Source: Caldisericota bacterium (lineage in GTDB: Bacteria > Caldisericota > JANLFM01). Taken from it: DNA of 13,797 bases. Below the pieces are notes generated by a model. The model was not told where the DNA came from, did no database searches, and worked only from the letters and a program-made list of their open reading frames with translations. Of the stretch, positions 1,489-13,797 are shown piece after piece. Positions within the stretch are counted from its first letter, which is position 1; every line of letters begins with the position of its first letter. The stretch is taken from assembly GCA_024655865.1 (NCBI GenBank), contig JANLFM010000030.1:1-13797 (forward strand), written 5' to 3'. The position numbers were made by a program, and so were the translations under genes.

Positions 1489-2242
1489 TGTGGGAAATAC
1501 GAACATTGTCCTCGGGCTTTTTGACGGGGCGAAGCTTTTAAGCTTCTGGAGGTTGCACACCGATTCCAGGATAACCACTGATGAATTTACTCTCGTGGTG
1601 GAGAGCCTTTTAAAGATGGCGGGTTTTTCCTTCCAGGATGTTCAAGGCATGGCCGTGGCCTGCGTGGTACCTCCTCTTATTCATCCTCTGACCAGGTTCG
1701 CAGAAAGGCACCTTAAACTCAGCCCTTTGATCGTGGGCCCCGGGACCAAAACCGGCATGCCCATCCTGATTGATAACCCCAAGGAATTAGGCGCAGACTT
1801 GATCGTGAATGCCGTGGCCGCTAAAGAAAAGTTTGGGGCACCCGTAATTGTCGTGGATTTTGGCACAGCCACCACTTTCAGTGCCGTTTCACCCAAGGGG
1901 GAATATCTGGGAGGTGTGATTGCTCCCGGAGTAAAGATGGCTTTGGATGGCTTATTTCTCCAGACCGCCAAATTGCCCAAGGTGGAGATCGTGGAGCCCT
2001 CAGCAGCGATTGGGAAAAATACCGTTACCGCGATCCAGTCAGGAATATTCTTTGGATTTGTGGGTCTGGCTCGAGAAATAATCAACAGGTTAAAGGAGGA
2101 GATAGGGGTATCCTGCCCCGTAATCGCCACGGGAGGGCTCTCCGGGATGATCGCCAGGCGCATTCCAGAGGTGGATTATCTGGAGCCACAGCTAACGTTG
2201 GAAGGGTTACGACTGATCTTTGAACGAAACCAGAAAAAGTAA
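1472..2242 (+). CDS. coaX: Type III pantothenate kinase
   Basis: CoaX phosphorylates pantothenate, the first step of coenzyme A synthesis, in the cytoplasm. The 256-residue length is normal for the family. The N-terminal ASKHA phosphate loop is clear (AIDVGNTNIVLG, residues 4-15, Asp6). The substrate loop GPGTKTGMPI (89-98), the NPKELGAD motif with the presumed catalytic Asp109, and the second nucleotide loop VVDFGTATTF (127-136) are all present. The residue after Asp109 is Leu, where I expect Arg in many homologues (GADR). The ATG at 1472 follows AGGAGG near 1456 inside the upstream gene, and the two genes overlap by 17 nt; the 3' end overlaps dus by 23 nt. This links vitamin uptake and phosphorylation in one operon. 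Type III kinases need a monovalent cation and escape CoA feedback (family knowledge). Confidence 0.95.
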   Translation: MLLAIDVGNTNIVLGLFDGAKLLSFWRLHTDSRITTDEFTLVVESLLKMAGFSFQDVQGMAVACVVPPLIHPLTRFAERHLKLSPLIVGPGTKTGMPILIDNPKELGADLIVNAVAAKEKFGAPVIVVDFGTATTFSAVSPKGEYLGGVIAPGVKMALDGLFLQTAKLPKVEIVEPSAAIGKNTVTAIQSGIFFGFVGLAREIINRLKEEIGVSCPVIATGGLSGMIARRIPEVDYLEPQLTLEGLRLIFERNQKK

Positions 2243-3185
2243 ATTTCCATTTCCTCTCATAGCTCTGGCGCCAATGTCTGAGTGGAACGACCTTGCCTTT
2301 CTCTCGCTCGTGCGGGAATATGGTGCCGACCTGGTGTTTTTAGGCCTGGTTTCCGCAGAGGGGCTAATCAGGGATAATCTGAAGACGAAGAGCCTGATTC
2401 GCTTAACGGAAAGAACTCGTCCCATATTTGCCCAGATTTTCGGCGCTAATCCATATAGTATGGCGAAGGCAGCGAAAATCGTGGAAGAAGAGGGGTTTGA
2501 TGGACTGGATATAAACGCAGGCTGTCCGGCGTCCAAAGTTTTGCGCGTTGGCTCTGGGGCAGCTCTCATGGAAGATTTAAAAAATGCCCGGGCAGTAGTT
2601 AAATCGGTGCGGAAAGCCGTCAAAATTCCTGTAACCATAAAAATGAGACTCGGGCCTACGGGCACAGAGCATCTAAAACTGGCAGCGATCGCTGAGGACG
2701 AGGGAGTAGACGCTGTAATCTTGCATCCCAGAACCGTGAGGCAAGGCTATTCCGGGCGGGCTGATTGGGGGAAAATCGTAGAACTGAAATCCATGCTCTC
2801 TATCCTCGTATTCGCTTCAGGCGACATCAAGAGCGGGGCTTCTTTTATGGAAGTTCTTCGTCTCACGGGGTGCGATGGTGTTCTCATCGGTAGGGGAGCG
2901 CTAGGCAACCCCTGGGTCTTTCGAGAATGCCATGATGCTCTAACTGGCAAAGATCCTTCGAGAGTGGATTTACAAGAAAGAGAAGGGGCGATTCTCAGGT
3001 ACCTTGATTACCTTGAGGAATTTTACAGGGAAAAGGGCTTGAAATTCGCCAGAAGGCATCTTTCTCTTTTTGTAAAGGGCCTTCCCCGATCCTCAGAGTT
3101 CAGAGCAAAACTCCAGGAAGCAGCCTGGTCCCAATTAAAAGACCTGGTGAGAAATTATTTCGAAAATTTAAGGAGGGTAAAATGA
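2220..3185 (+). CDS. dus: tRNA-dihydrouridine synthase family protein (divergent Dus)
   Basis: Dus enzymes are FMN-dependent TIM-barrel proteins that reduce uridines in the tRNA D-loop using NADPH. At 321 residues this one has the usual length. Conserved parts are INAGCPASKV with catalytic Cys102, TIKMRLG with Lys141, HPRTVRQGYSGRADW with His169, and the phosphate-binding GRGALGNPW (224-232). The first strand motif is unusual: LAPMSEWND where most members have LAPMAGVTD, and FLGLVSAEG where TEMVSAKG is typical. The only start that keeps the first barrel strand is TTG 2220, because an in-frame stop lies at 2214-2216 and the next ATG (2274) would remove it. It overlaps coaX by 23 nt and the next gene by ATGA. 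DusB is the closest Firmicute counterpart; substrate position cannot be read from sequence. Confidence 0.88.
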   Translation: MNETRKSKFPFPLIALAPMSEWNDLAFLSLVREYGADLVFLGLVSAEGLIRDNLKTKSLIRLTERTRPIFAQIFGANPYSMAKAAKIVEEEGFDGLDINAGCPASKVLRVGSGAALMEDLKNARAVVKSVRKAVKIPVTIKMRLGPTGTEHLKLAAIAEDEGVDAVILHPRTVRQGYSGRADWGKIVELKSMLSILVFASGDIKSGASFMEVLRLTGCDGVLIGRGALGNPWVFRECHDALTGKDPSRVDLQEREGAILRYLDYLEEFYREKGLKFARRHLSLFVKGLPRSSEFRAKLQEAAWSQLKDLVRNYFENLRRVK

Positions 3186-10485: not shown

Positions 10486-10494
10486 GCACTCAGG
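10481..10494 (-). terminator. Weak candidate terminator for the minus-strand psuK-psuG operon
   Basis: CCTGA and TCAGG form a 5-bp stem (10481-10494) around a 4-base loop. On the minus strand it lies about 45 bases past the psuG stop and is followed, after a short gap, by TTTTT (complement of 10472-10476). The stem overlaps the rlmB stop codon and has no T-run in the plus direction. The short stem makes this uncertain. Confidence 0.3.
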
Positions 10495-10538
10495 CTTACG
10501 GGCATCGGAAATCAAGGAGTTTAGTGAAGGATCTGACC

Positions 10539-11459
10539 TTATATTTTAGGAGTTTCCACCCTAATCCTGGTGTAAGCTTTGGCAATTTTTGCCCCTAATT
10601 TAGCGTTGGCCTGAGCAAGAGCGATGTTTGTCTCCACTGTCCTCCCTCCAGAGCTTTTCTCCAGGTAGGAGAGCAAAAATGGTGTGAGCTCCTTTCCCTT
10701 AATCTGTAATTTCTCCGCCGCCTGGAGCGCTTTTTTGATGAGTTCCTCCACGTAGAAATCAGGGAGCTCGCTTTCCTCAGGAGGACGATTGCCTACAAGG
10801 ATAGCTCTTTCTAACTGAAGGACACGCCAATTTAAAAACATGATCTCGGCAACTTCCTCAGGCGATCCCACCATGGGGATTTTCAAGCCGGAATTCCCTG
10901 TATAGAAAGCAGGAAAAGTAGGAGTTCTGTAACCCAAGACTGTTATGCCCAGGGTTTCTAAAAGTTCCAGCGTTCGGGGCAAGTCCAAAATGGCTTTAGC
11001 ACCGGAAGAAACGATACAGATGGGAATCCTGGCCATGGAGGTCAAATCCTGGGAGATATCGAAGGTCAGCTCTGCTCCCCTGTGTACCCCACCAATCCCC
11101 CCGGTTGCCATGACGGGGATCCCCACGCGGTGTGCGATTTCAATCGTGGCAGAAACTGTAGTTCCTCCACTTAATTTTTTCTTCAGGGCCCAGGAAAGGC
11201 TTGAAACCTGCACCTTCTCACTTTCTTTGCTTACCAGGTTTTCTAACTCAGGGTGGGTTAAGCCCACCTTTATTCGGCCTTCAAGAAGGGCTACGATGGC
11301 GGGAATAGCCCCCTCTTTTCTCACCGCGCTTTCCATAAGGTGCGCTGCTTCAATGTTTTTTGGATAGGGCAGGCCGTGTGTGATGATCGTCGATTCCAGA
11401 GCTACAATTGATTCTTTTTTATCCAGAGCGGATTTTACTTCCTCACTGATTTCAATCAC
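10539..11459 (-). CDS. psuG: Pseudouridine-5'-phosphate glycosidase
   Basis: PsuG cleaves pseudouridine 5'-phosphate to uracil and ribose 5-phosphate, breaking the C-C glycosidic bond of pseudouridine from RNA turnover. The 306 residues match the family length. Motifs seen are ALESTIITHGLPYP (20-33) with Glu22, ATGGIGGVHRGAE (118-130), FDISQDL (133-139) and TPFLL near the C-terminus. Lys82 aligns without gaps to the catalytic Lys93 that I recall for E. coli, although the following SRRDLP-like stretch is replaced by QVSSLS. The start is GTG 11459, because GGAGGTG (11475-11469) lies just upstream. A longer frame to 11579 would add 40 residues lying entirely inside psuK and is rejected. The upstream kinase's stop lies within that Shine-Dalgarno, indicating coupling. 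Confidence 0.93.
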   Translation of the reverse strand: MIEISEEVKSALDKKESIVALESTIITHGLPYPKNIEAAHLMESAVRKEGAIPAIVALLEGRIKVGLTHPELENLVSKESEKVQVSSLSWALKKKLSGGTTVSATIEIAHRVGIPVMATGGIGGVHRGAELTFDISQDLTSMARIPICIVSSGAKAILDLPRTLELLETLGITVLGYRTPTFPAFYTGNSGLKIPMVGSPEEVAEIMFLNWRVLQLERAILVGNRPPEESELPDFYVEELIKKALQAAEKLQIKGKELTPFLLSYLEKSSGGRTVETNIALAQANAKLGAKIAKAYTRIRVETPKI

Positions 11460-11467
11460 CGGGTTTT

Positions 11468-12379
11468 TCACCTCCTCTCTTTTAAGAAGCCTTTTATAGA
11501 AGGTTGAGCGCCAAAATGGGAGACCACGTAGGCCCCCAGGCGATTGCCCCCTTCTAGGGCCTGTTTTATATCCCCGCATTGAAGGAACTTCACAAGGAAG
11601 CCCGCATCAAAAGCATCCCCGGCCCCGGTTGTGTCTGAAACTGGAGCCGGGAAAGCAGGTAAGGAAAGCTCCTCCTTGTTCCAGAGAGCAGTTGCCCCTC
11701 CGGCACCTCTTTTGATAACCACCGTCTTCGCAAAGGCGCACAATCTGGAGAAATCCTTGTCCCCTGCAAATATCAAAGCCTCCTCCTCATTCAGCATCAG
11801 GAAATCCAGCGGGGTTACCAGCTCGATGAGCTCCTGGTACCCGAACTCCTCCATCAGATGGAACGATGAGGGATCAAAAGCGATTAAGATCCCAATTTTC
11901 CTGGCGTGGGATAAGGCCTTCCCAAGGAAGTTCACCGAAGAGCGGTTAAATACCGTGTAGCCCGTGAAAAATAGAAGGTCGTATCCCTCAAAAAGTTGGG
12001 GAGCGAAGTCCTCGGGAGAAAAAGCGAGGTGAGGGTCTTTGTCCATTACCATAGCTCTCTCCCCATTGGCTGAGACTAAAACTCCAATACGGGCCGTGCG
12101 CGCTCCAGGGACCGGGCTCAAGGGAAATTCAACCCCCTCTTCCTTCAAATGCTGAAGCATTAATTCTCCCAAAAGATCTTTTCCCACCTTACCCAAAAGC
12201 CTAATTTTTGCCCCGCACCTTGAAGCCCAGACCGCGAAGTTGCAGGCAGACCCCCCGTACGAGAATTCCACGCGCCCAGGGACGTCAGAGCCCCAGAATA
12301 ACCCCTGGGGTGTTTCCAGGAGGAAATCCCAGGCTATGTCCCCTAATGAGATGATTCTGGGCTTTTTATCTGCGCTCAT
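11468..12379 (-). CDS. psuK: PfkB-family carbohydrate kinase, probable pseudouridine kinase
   Basis: This 303-residue ribokinase-fold enzyme has the N-terminal SLGDIAWDF substrate segment (11-19), the YGGSACNFA lid/di-glycine region (41-49), NEEE (197-200), VIKRGAGGA (221-229) and the PfkB signature DTTGAGDAFDAGF (249-261) with catalytic base Asp255. It has no N-terminal helix-turn-helix, which some pseudouridine kinases carry. The family alone does not fix the sugar. Tight coupling to the glycosidase (the stop is 8 bases before the psuG start) makes pseudouridine kinase the best guess; another nucleoside or sugar is possible. ATG 12379 has no credible Shine-Dalgarno and sits seven bases after a -10 element, suggesting a leaderless message. 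It runs opposite to the housekeeping operon. Confidence 0.85.
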   Translation of the reverse strand: MSADKKPRIISLGDIAWDFLLETPQGLFWGSDVPGRVEFSYGGSACNFAVWASRCGAKIRLLGKVGKDLLGELMLQHLKEEGVEFPLSPVPGARTARIGVLVSANGERAMVMDKDPHLAFSPEDFAPQLFEGYDLLFFTGYTVFNRSSVNFLGKALSHARKIGILIAFDPSSFHLMEEFGYQELIELVTPLDFLMLNEEEALIFAGDKDFSRLCAFAKTVVIKRGAGGATALWNKEELSLPAFPAPVSDTTGAGDAFDAGFLVKFLQCGDIKQALEGGNRLGAYVVSHFGAQPSIKGFLKERR

Positions 12380-12386
12380 TTCTTAA

Positions 12387-12415
12387 ATTATGCGCTATGG
12401 GATTTTTTCAGTAAA
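12387..12415 (-). promoter_or_regulatory. Promoter of psuK-psuG, apparently leaderless
   Basis: Read on the minus strand, TTTACT (12415-12410) and CATAAT (12392-12387) are 17 bases apart, matching 4/6 and 5/6 of the sigma-70 consensus. The -10 ends seven bases before the ATG at 12379, so transcription should start at or next to the A of the start codon. Confidence 0.55.
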
Positions 12416-12837
12416 CTCCTCATAAGCTGCGTGATTTGGGTCCCTCGGCCTATTTGTTCAGGGAAACCCAGTTGCCCTCTTACCTCCTCGTGCTGGAGAT
12501 CTTCACCAATTATCAATTAACCAATAGACTACCCTCCTCTCATTGCACAAGCCATGGTGGAGTCTCTGCGTGATAGTGAATGAAATGTTGATCCAGTGAT
12601 CCAGCAGCGCTTGGAAAGATACGGGGCCTAGAAAAGTTTTTCCTGGTTGAAGAAGGACTGCTAACTATCCGGAGGTAGAATAGGGAAAGGCTGAAATTAA
12701 CCTATTATACTACCATAAGATCCTTTCCACTATGTGTATTTGACGCCTGCTCTGTGGCCTCGCTAGGTTGTCATCGGCACTTCAAAAATGCGCAAACCGC
12801 TAAGCGAAGTCATGAGCGAATGTTTTAGAAAATTATA
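12416..12837 (+). other. Gene-poor interval between psuK and the Cys-rich gene
   Basis: All six frames are short and broken, and I recognise no protein. Small structures seen are an imperfect hairpin TGGGT-CCCT / AGGG-AA-ACCCA (12437-12470), a tandem 8-mer TGATCCAG twice (12589-12604), and -10-like hexamers on both strands near 12704-12711 without good -35 partners. TTGACG (12740-12745) with TAGGTT (12764-12769) is a weak possible promoter for the downstream gene. It may be decayed sequence. Confidence 0.5.
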
Positions 12838-12846
12838 AAGGAGGTG
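12838..12846 (+). promoter_or_regulatory. Strong Shine-Dalgarno of the Cys-rich gene
   Basis: AAGGAGGTG is a near-perfect complement to the 16S 3' end. Its GGAGG core lies seven bases before ATG 12852, and this fixes the start and argues that the following ORF is translated. Confidence 0.75.
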
Positions 12847-12851
12847 TAAGT

Positions 12852-13388
12852 ATGCCCTTTAATCCGGCGAGGTTTCGCAAAAGCTTTATAGAGGTAATGT
12901 CCCAGGATCCATCGGTCTTCAAGAAGACCGATGGATCTCTATTCGGCCAGCTTAAAACACCCAAAAAGAAGGCTGAGTTCATTAAAGATCTCATCCAGGA
13001 GTTAATGGCTGTAGTCCCCATCGATAAAGCTAACCTTATAATGCAGGGTTGCGGGAAGCAGTGTATCGGTAACTCCATACTGAAAAAAGCGAGGACCTTA
13101 TTCATAGAGTCCCAAGACATGGATGATTTCATGATTAAACTTAACGAGCAGCATATCGGCGGTGGACGCCTGAATTTTAAGAGTAACGTGATCGAAGCAG
13201 GTTATGATAGATGCTACTGCGGCAGCGTGAGCGCTGGCAAAGAGAGAATGCCCCTCACTTACTGCTATTGCTCAACAGGCTGGTACAAGAGGCTATTCGA
13301 GGAAGTGCTGTCCCGACCCGTACAGGTTGAAATATTGCAGTCCATCATCAACGGGGCGGATACCTGTCGGTTCTTGATTCACATATAA
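12852..13388 (+). CDS. Cysteine-rich protein of unknown function, possibly V4R-like or DUF6144-like
   Basis: This soluble 178-residue protein has no signal peptide or membrane segment. It has seven cysteines in four groups: GCGKQC (Cys67, Cys71), RCYCG (Cys121, Cys123), YCYC (Cys138, Cys140) and Cys172 in GADTCRFLI. The end (FEEVLSRPVQVEILQSIINGADTC..F) resembles the last strand/turn of V4R-type hydrocarbon-binding domains and of some uncharacterised clostridial Cys-rich families. I cannot confirm either. The cysteine pairs could hold a metal or Fe-S cluster (inference). The gene has a strong Shine-Dalgarno and stands alone on the plus strand between psuK and recombinase debris. A perfect inverted repeat lies in codons 19-29. 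It shows no frameshift. Confidence 0.75.
   Translation: MPFNPARFRKSFIEVMSQDPSVFKKTDGSLFGQLKTPKKKAEFIKDLIQELMAVVPIDKANLIMQGCGKQCIGNSILKKARTLFIESQDMDDFMIKLNEQHIGGGRLNFKSNVIEAGYDRCYCGSVSAGKERMPLTYCYCSTGWYKRLFEEVLSRPVQVEILQSIINGADTCRFLIHI
12906..12937. repeat. Perfect 14-bp inverted repeat with 4-base loop inside a coding region
   Basis: GATCCATCGGTCTT (12906-12919) is followed by CAAG and then its exact reverse complement AAGACCGATGGATC (12924-12937); one more G-U pair could extend it in RNA. It encodes residues 19-29 (DPSVFKKTDGS) of the Cys-rich protein. No T-run follows on either strand, so it is not a usual terminator. Confidence 0.9.
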
Positions 13389-13424
13389 AAGGTTCAGGAA
13401 TTCACTTGCTCAGGGTTGCGGGAT

Positions 13425-13671
13425 TTAAGCAACTGCAAGGAGCTTCTGCATCTCGGAGTAGGTGAGGGGAAAGAGAGCCCGCTTCACTTTCTGGAAGAGG
13501 ATTCCCAGGGCCTCTCCTCTAAAAAAGGAGAAACCTTCCCAGTTTGTCCGAGTAGTACTTGATTGTCCTAGGGGAAAGGCCTTTCCTTTCCAAGAACTTT
13601 AAAAAGAGCAAAATTAAGTGTCCCGCTGATGTTGTAAAAACACCTTCTTTTTCTTTCTTCCCGACGGTCAT
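13425..13671 (-). pseudogene. Remnant of a tyrosine recombinase/integrase (truncated and frameshifted)
   Basis: On the minus strand ATG 13671, preceded by AGGAGG (13687-13682), opens a 50-codon frame ending at TAG 13521-13519. Its residues 26-40, FLERKGLSPRTIKYY, followed by SDKLGRFLLF, are a textbook N-terminal SAM-like core-binding segment of XerC/D-type recombinases. A few bases on, another frame reads FQKVKRALFPLTYSEMQKLLAVA to TAA 13427-13425, resembling the linker and the start of the catalytic domain (VK...PLT..E...LL). Between them roughly 60-70 residues expected in an intact enzyme are missing. All of the catalytic R-H-R-Y part is absent, so it cannot be active. It points away from the tRNA-Thr that starts 71 bases from its ATG. 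Confidence 0.75.
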
Positions 13672-13703
13672 GCGCAAATCGCCTCCTGCTTAGGATTTGG
13701 CAT

Positions 13704-13732
13704 TTGATGCTCATCGGGAAATTCGGTAAAAT
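13704..13732 (+). promoter_or_regulatory. Promoter of the tRNA-Thr gene
   Basis: TTGATG (13704-13709) and TAAAAT (13727-13732) are 17 bases apart, matching 4/6 and 5/6 of the sigma-70 consensus. The predicted start near 13739 lies about four bases before the mature tRNA 5' end, so the precursor leader would be very short. Confidence 0.65.
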
Positions 13733-13742
13733 ATTTCATAAG

Positions 13743-13797
13743 GCCGGCGTAGCTCAGCGGTAGAGCTGCTGAATCGTAATCAGCGGGTCGGGGGTTC
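13743..13797 (+). tRNA. tRNA-Thr (anticodon CGU), 3' end outside window
   Basis: Folding by eye gives acceptor strand GCCGGCG (13743-13749), U8, D-arm GCTC/GAGC around AGCGGTA, and anticodon stem GCTGA/TCAGC around loop ATCGTAA. A 5-base variable loop follows, then the T-stem GGGGG and the beginning of the TTC loop, where the window ends. The anticodon CGT reads the threonine codon ACG. About 20 bases (the rest of the T-arm and the acceptor 3' strand) are cut off. In many bacteria a tRNA-Thr precedes tuf and the secE-nusG region; whether that holds here is not visible. Confidence 0.92.

Follow-up and report, generated by a model that had tools for sequence, protein, structure and literature searches.

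What is the stretch that lies beside the tRNA-Thr gene at the edge of this contig, and how did it come to stand there? The window is the whole of contig C23 (13,797 nucleotides), part of a genome of 1.82 Mb in 63 contigs (hereafter G000), and a sister genome (G001) was used for comparison. A preliminary description had placed here, on the minus strand, a tyrosine-recombinase core-binding segment with its own Shine-Dalgarno sequence and a frameshifted second piece, about 70 bp from a tRNA gene. That description is confirmed, and the features on which the analysis rests are as follows.

12852–13388, plus strand: gene of the DUF6144 family, which G001 lacks at this position.
13425–13532, minus strand: second, frame-shifted piece of the integrase pseudogene, RGEALGILFQKVKRALFPLTYSEMQKLLAVA and stop, corresponding to the start of the catalytic domain (stop TAA at 13425).
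13519–13677, minus strand: N-terminal part (SAM-like/core-binding) of the integrase pseudogene, with start codons TTG (13677) and ATG (13671) and a TAG stop (13519).
13634–13742, no strand assigned: block unusually similar to G001: apart from the tRNA, identity is 88%, compared with an average of 72% in genes and 44% at third codon positions.
13682–13687, minus strand: Shine-Dalgarno sequence AGGAGG of the dead integrase, by direct reading.
13704–13732, plus strand: sigma-70-like promoter of the tRNA, TTGATG-17-TAAAAT, a consensus match only.
13743–13797, plus strand: 5′-terminal 55 nt of tRNA-Thr(CGT); the contig stops just within the T-loop.

The first piece of the relic (minus strand, 13677–13519) translates as MRMTVGKKEKEGVFTTSAGHLILLFLKFLERKGLSPRTIKYYSDKLGRFLLF followed by a stop, and the next frame ends in RGEALGILFQKVKRALFPLTYSEMQKLLAVA and a stop at 13425. 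A profile search, proposed in the preliminary description as a check, recovers the SAM-like integrase domain only below the Pfam cut-offs (PF13495 at E 0.003–0.005, PF02899 at E 0.05–0.1). The assignment to the N-terminal core-binding domain comes from homology within the same genome, where the first piece matches five integrase paralogues at E-values from 4.6e-14 to 7.4e-8. The match to the C42 integrase extends over 49 amino acids with 65% identity (E 4.6e-14), that to the C6 integrase shows 57% identity (E 2.8e-12), and the integrases of C38, C55 and C22 also match. When aligned with these paralogues, the second piece falls at the start of their catalytic domain. Pfam scores below the curated cut-offs would speak for a chance open frame, or for a conserved small protein that has nothing to do with integrases; the E 4.6e-14 match of the first piece to paralogous integrases and the alignment of the second piece already refute such a reading, to which I give practically no weight. 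Conservation as an independent small protein had been named beforehand as an observation that would refute the integrase reading, and in G001 the relic is instead shorter and independently frameshifted.

The AGGAGG (minus strand, 13687–13682) lies a few bases 5′ of the TTG and ATG starts (13677 and 13671), and a similar purine-rich leader is also found ahead of the intact paralogues. Aligned with these, the relic comprises residues 1 to about 50, a gap of about 50 codons, and the start of the catalytic domain, ending near residue 130 of 298; a frameshift and the deletion of about 50 codons separate the two pieces. None of the catalytic residues (R...HxxR...H...Y) of the catalytic domain is left, and the relic therefore has no recombinase activity now. 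Judged by these alignments, the stretch is the dead, twice-broken front third of a tyrosine integrase, a pseudogene and not a working member of its family.

The segment that differs between the two genomes is smaller than had been supposed. The preliminary description placed a former mobile insertion at roughly 10486 to 13742, but the psuG-like and PfkB-like genes within it (10539–12379) lie beside rlmB and are collinear with G001, and an insertion starting at 10486 is rejected on this ground. The difference is confined to about 12.4–13.62 kb, where G000 carries the DUF6144 gene and G001 an unrelated 334-aa ORF. The DUF6144 gene is possibly cargo, and possibly an ordinary lineage-specific gene. 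A perfect 15-nt inverted repeat with a 2-nt loop lies inside it (12906–12937).

The tRNA-Thr (anticodon CGT) begins at 13743 and is separated from the start of the relic by 65 bp. Its intact counterpart in G001 was identified by ARAGORN as tRNA-Thr(cgt), and is followed there by tRNA-Tyr, tRNA-Gly and tRNA-Thr(GGT), which represents the uninterrupted state. In G000, the 55-mer that ends the window also forms the very end of contig C19 and the very beginning of contig C42. Such sharing among contigs is what an assembler would give if one tRNA piece stood in several contexts. On C42 the tRNA-Thr is broken inside the T-loop and an integrase, itself truncated, starts about 20 bp further on, while on C19 a hairpin-like motif, GGCTCC..GGAGACTATT, lies about 115 bp before the tRNA-Thr piece. 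The tRNA-Thr at the window edge thus looks to have been hit again by an element. No contig of G000 was found to carry the 3′ half of tRNA-Thr together with the tRNA genes that follow it, and for this reason the joins of C23 to C42 and of C19 to the host are only inferred. C19 also carries genes for the ThaI restriction enzyme and its methylase (1534–3093) and HmaA-, HmaB- and HmaC-like defence genes with a DUF3800 gene (4753–15288), and ends in the tRNA-Thr piece. In two family members, L049 (3591–6638) and L050 (5816–8529), tRNA-Thr(CGT) and tRNA-Tyr are separated by 2.7–3 kb that hold other genes; in G001 this interval is about 100 bp.

Four of the relic's five paralogues share an arrangement. 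G000 encodes four intact integrase paralogues (297–298 aa, 78–84% identical) and one more that is truncated, on C42. About 20 bp before the integrase stands a 5′ fragment of a tRNA gene broken in the T-loop, namely tRNA-Lys(TTT) on C55, tRNA-Arg(TCT) on C38, tRNA-Arg(CCG) on C6 and tRNA-Thr(CGT) on C42; the break falls after GTTCGA in the first three and after GTTC in the last. The case of tRNA-Lys can be followed between genomes. In G001, dnaB, tRNA-Lys and a dehydrogenase-like gene are contiguous, whereas in G000 contig C55 holds dnaB, the tRNA-Lys 5′ fragment and the integrase, and the start of contig C8 carries the complete tRNA-Lys 3′ half with the dehydrogenase-like gene. The insertion at tRNA-Lys is visible from the comparison of the two genomes.

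A different geometry is found on C22 (8707–12981), where an element of about 4.2 kb lies between two identical, inverted pieces of tRNA-Ser(GCT) that are broken in the anticodon arm, and the integrase abuts the inverted tRNA-Ser 3′ fragment. The family thus extends beyond breaks in the T-loop and beyond 5′ fragments. Besides the integrase, the C22 element carries a weak replication-initiation-like gene, and has the size of a satellite or integrative plasmid.

The motif seen on C19, in its general form GGYTCC-n-GGAGACTATT, occurs six times in G000 and G001 (five and one), and every copy has a tRNA or a piece of one downstream of it. A reversed control pattern occurred nowhere; the motif itself is absent from G002 and G004. 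The single copy in G001 lies on contig C33 (about 219909–220075), between dnaB and the intact tRNA-Lys, and looks like the scar of a lost element. Taken together, the family of the relic is predicted to consist of elements in this genus that integrate in tRNA genes, mostly by a crossover in the T-loop, and displace the 5′ part. The preliminary description had remarked on the unusual 5′ side of the tRNA on which the recombinase lies. The observation holds, and the layout of the four paralogues that sit behind tRNA 5′ fragments explains it.

The relic is akin in sequence to the integrases of these T-loop elements (65% over 49 aa to the C42 integrase), but its surroundings differ from theirs. It reads away from its tRNA-Thr, from which 65 bp separate it, and there is no tRNA fragment directly before its start. 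No tRNA-like remnant was found in this gap or in 12370–13742, and no direct repeats bound the 12.4–13.8 kb segment. A repeat of the tRNA-Thr bases, whose presence had been put forward earlier as a further check, is missing from the window too, which holds no second copy or displaced piece of tRNA-Thr; the 55-base copies at the edges of C19 and C42 concern another element. The end motif, present upstream of the tRNA-Thr 55-mer on C19, is absent from the window. With no second copy, no end motif and no abutting fragment, an att site is not claimed for the relic, although its element presumably entered through this tRNA-Thr.

The comparison with G001 also bears on the age of the relic, which is present in both genomes: in G001 it has the same start, is frameshifted near the fifth codon and meets a stop after about 20 codons. 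The stretch 13634–13742 is 88% identical between G000 and G001, against a sliding mean of 72% in collinear regions, and the relic with its promoter block ranks at the top of 23 orthologous tRNA upstream regions. One explanation, which I consider rather unlikely, is that the relic is an old, vertically inherited scrap, and that constraint on the promoter or regulatory DNA upstream of tRNA-Thr keeps the two copies alike. The promoter-like TTGATG-17-TAAAAT does fall within the block, and other tRNA upstream regions are conserved too, up to 0.85 (Trp, the control maximum); the control median is however only about 0.62. Moreover, the similarity runs 59 bp into the dead gene at 85%, whereas third codon positions of neighbouring genes agree at only 44%, and the differences between the two relics mostly alter the amino acid, indicating that the protein itself is not maintained. 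Between genomes this far apart, neutral descent would not be expected to leave a dead gene with 85% identity, so that more recent arrival in both hosts or constraint remains. Of these I moderately favour the former, that the block would have reached both hosts more recently and horizontally, as the end of an element would. The element of the relic may accordingly have arrived after the two host lineages split.

The orientation of the relic suggests another possibility, which I likewise consider rather unlikely: that the element carried its integrase on the tRNA side, diverging from it, so that one of its ends consisted of the integrase, the tRNA promoter and the tRNA-Thr 5′ half. This would account for the direction in which the relic reads, and also for why two divergent hosts conserve the promoter, the start of the integrase and the tRNA 5′ half together as a single block; the C22 integrase likewise diverges from its adjacent tRNA piece. 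Against it, an intact element of this layout was found neither in G000 nor in the other genomes searched nor in viral contigs.

The best explanation, and in my view a probable one, remains that a 5′-displacing tRNA element came in, lost its body and decayed, leaving the relic behind at tRNA-Thr. The integrase of such an element would cross over site-specifically in a tRNA gene, mostly in the T-loop, and so displace the 5′ part. In the living copies the integrase starts about 20 bp behind the displaced 5′ fragment, and the second end of the element, with GGYTCC-n-GGAGACTATT, lies ahead of another copy of that tRNA. The rebuilt tRNA would then receive its new 5′ half, and probably a promoter too, from the element. 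Once the body was lost and the integrase had decayed, only the relic would remain at tRNA-Thr. A more far-reaching version of this history is one I would sooner doubt than adopt. It holds that this is a genus-specific family whose integrases, nearly identical to one another, have switched target among at least five different tRNA genes, usually displacing the 5′ part, so that the host tRNA promoter could drive the integrase while the element gives the rebuilt tRNA a new promoter and 5′ half; the relic would then be the remains of a version with integrase, tRNA promoter and tRNA 5′ half as one end, which moved between hosts and left promoters of element origin on their tRNA genes.

Tyrosine integrases that act in tRNA genes are well known. 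Displaced 5′ tRNA fragments are rare, but have been catalogued for 159 of 3919 islands in the Islander database (PMC4383910). As here, those islands have a tyrosine integrase, a split tRNA gene, and a rebuilt copy with a displaced 5′ fragment (PMC4383910). Unlike them, G000 has several near-identical integrases in one genome, at different tRNAs and abutting the displaced fragment, as well as a relic without a visible fragment. The pTN3-like archaeal integrases also use the 5′ half of the tRNA gene, and the rebuilt tRNA is transcribed from a promoter of the element, a strategy said to be seldom seen in bacteria (PMC8371274). These are archaeal, and their integrase gene is split on integration, whereas the bacterial integrase described here starts past the break and is not split. 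At the protein level, the integrase shows 32% identity over 92% of the query to the integrase of Thermus phage phiFa, a XerC/XerD-like enzyme, and its structural relatives are XerA, XerC and XerD. Phage integrases of the phiFa type thus belong to the same protein family as those of G000, but are distant. Outside G000, neither viral contigs nor named genomes yielded a close relative of the integrase; the named genomes hold relatives only at 23–29% identity, and the exact 30-bp flank of the relic was not found in viral contigs. Other genomes contain distant XerC/D-like integrases, none with a T-loop-broken tRNA fragment at the integrase start. The relic is a further, dead case of a known kind, and the family around it is the more interesting object.

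Side observations were made on three other contigs of G000. On C61 (about 87426–87494), a tRNA-Ile-like gene (anticodon GAT) contains a ten-N scaffold gap exactly at the T-loop (GGTTC-N10-CCAG), another assembly break at this position. At the end of C10 (1–62), the 5′ half of a tRNA-Val(CAC)-like sequence is joined to an inverted copy of its own T-arm, either by an assembly fold-back or by a T-loop inversion. Fragments of a second tyrosine recombinase are found on C32 (4779–5124), just 3′ of a transposase-like coding sequence. The tRNA matches number 31 in G000, several of them fragments, against 46 in G001, and together with the tRNA pieces at contig ends this suggests why the G000 assembly breaks at tRNA genes.

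By itself, the relic is an ordinary fossil, and its value is as a pointer to a family of 5′-side tRNA integrators. This family is apparently recent and has, within a single small genome, five or more target tRNAs. It offers a natural series on how a tyrosine integrase switches its target tRNA, and lets one ask whether host tRNA genes acquire replacement promoters from mobile elements.
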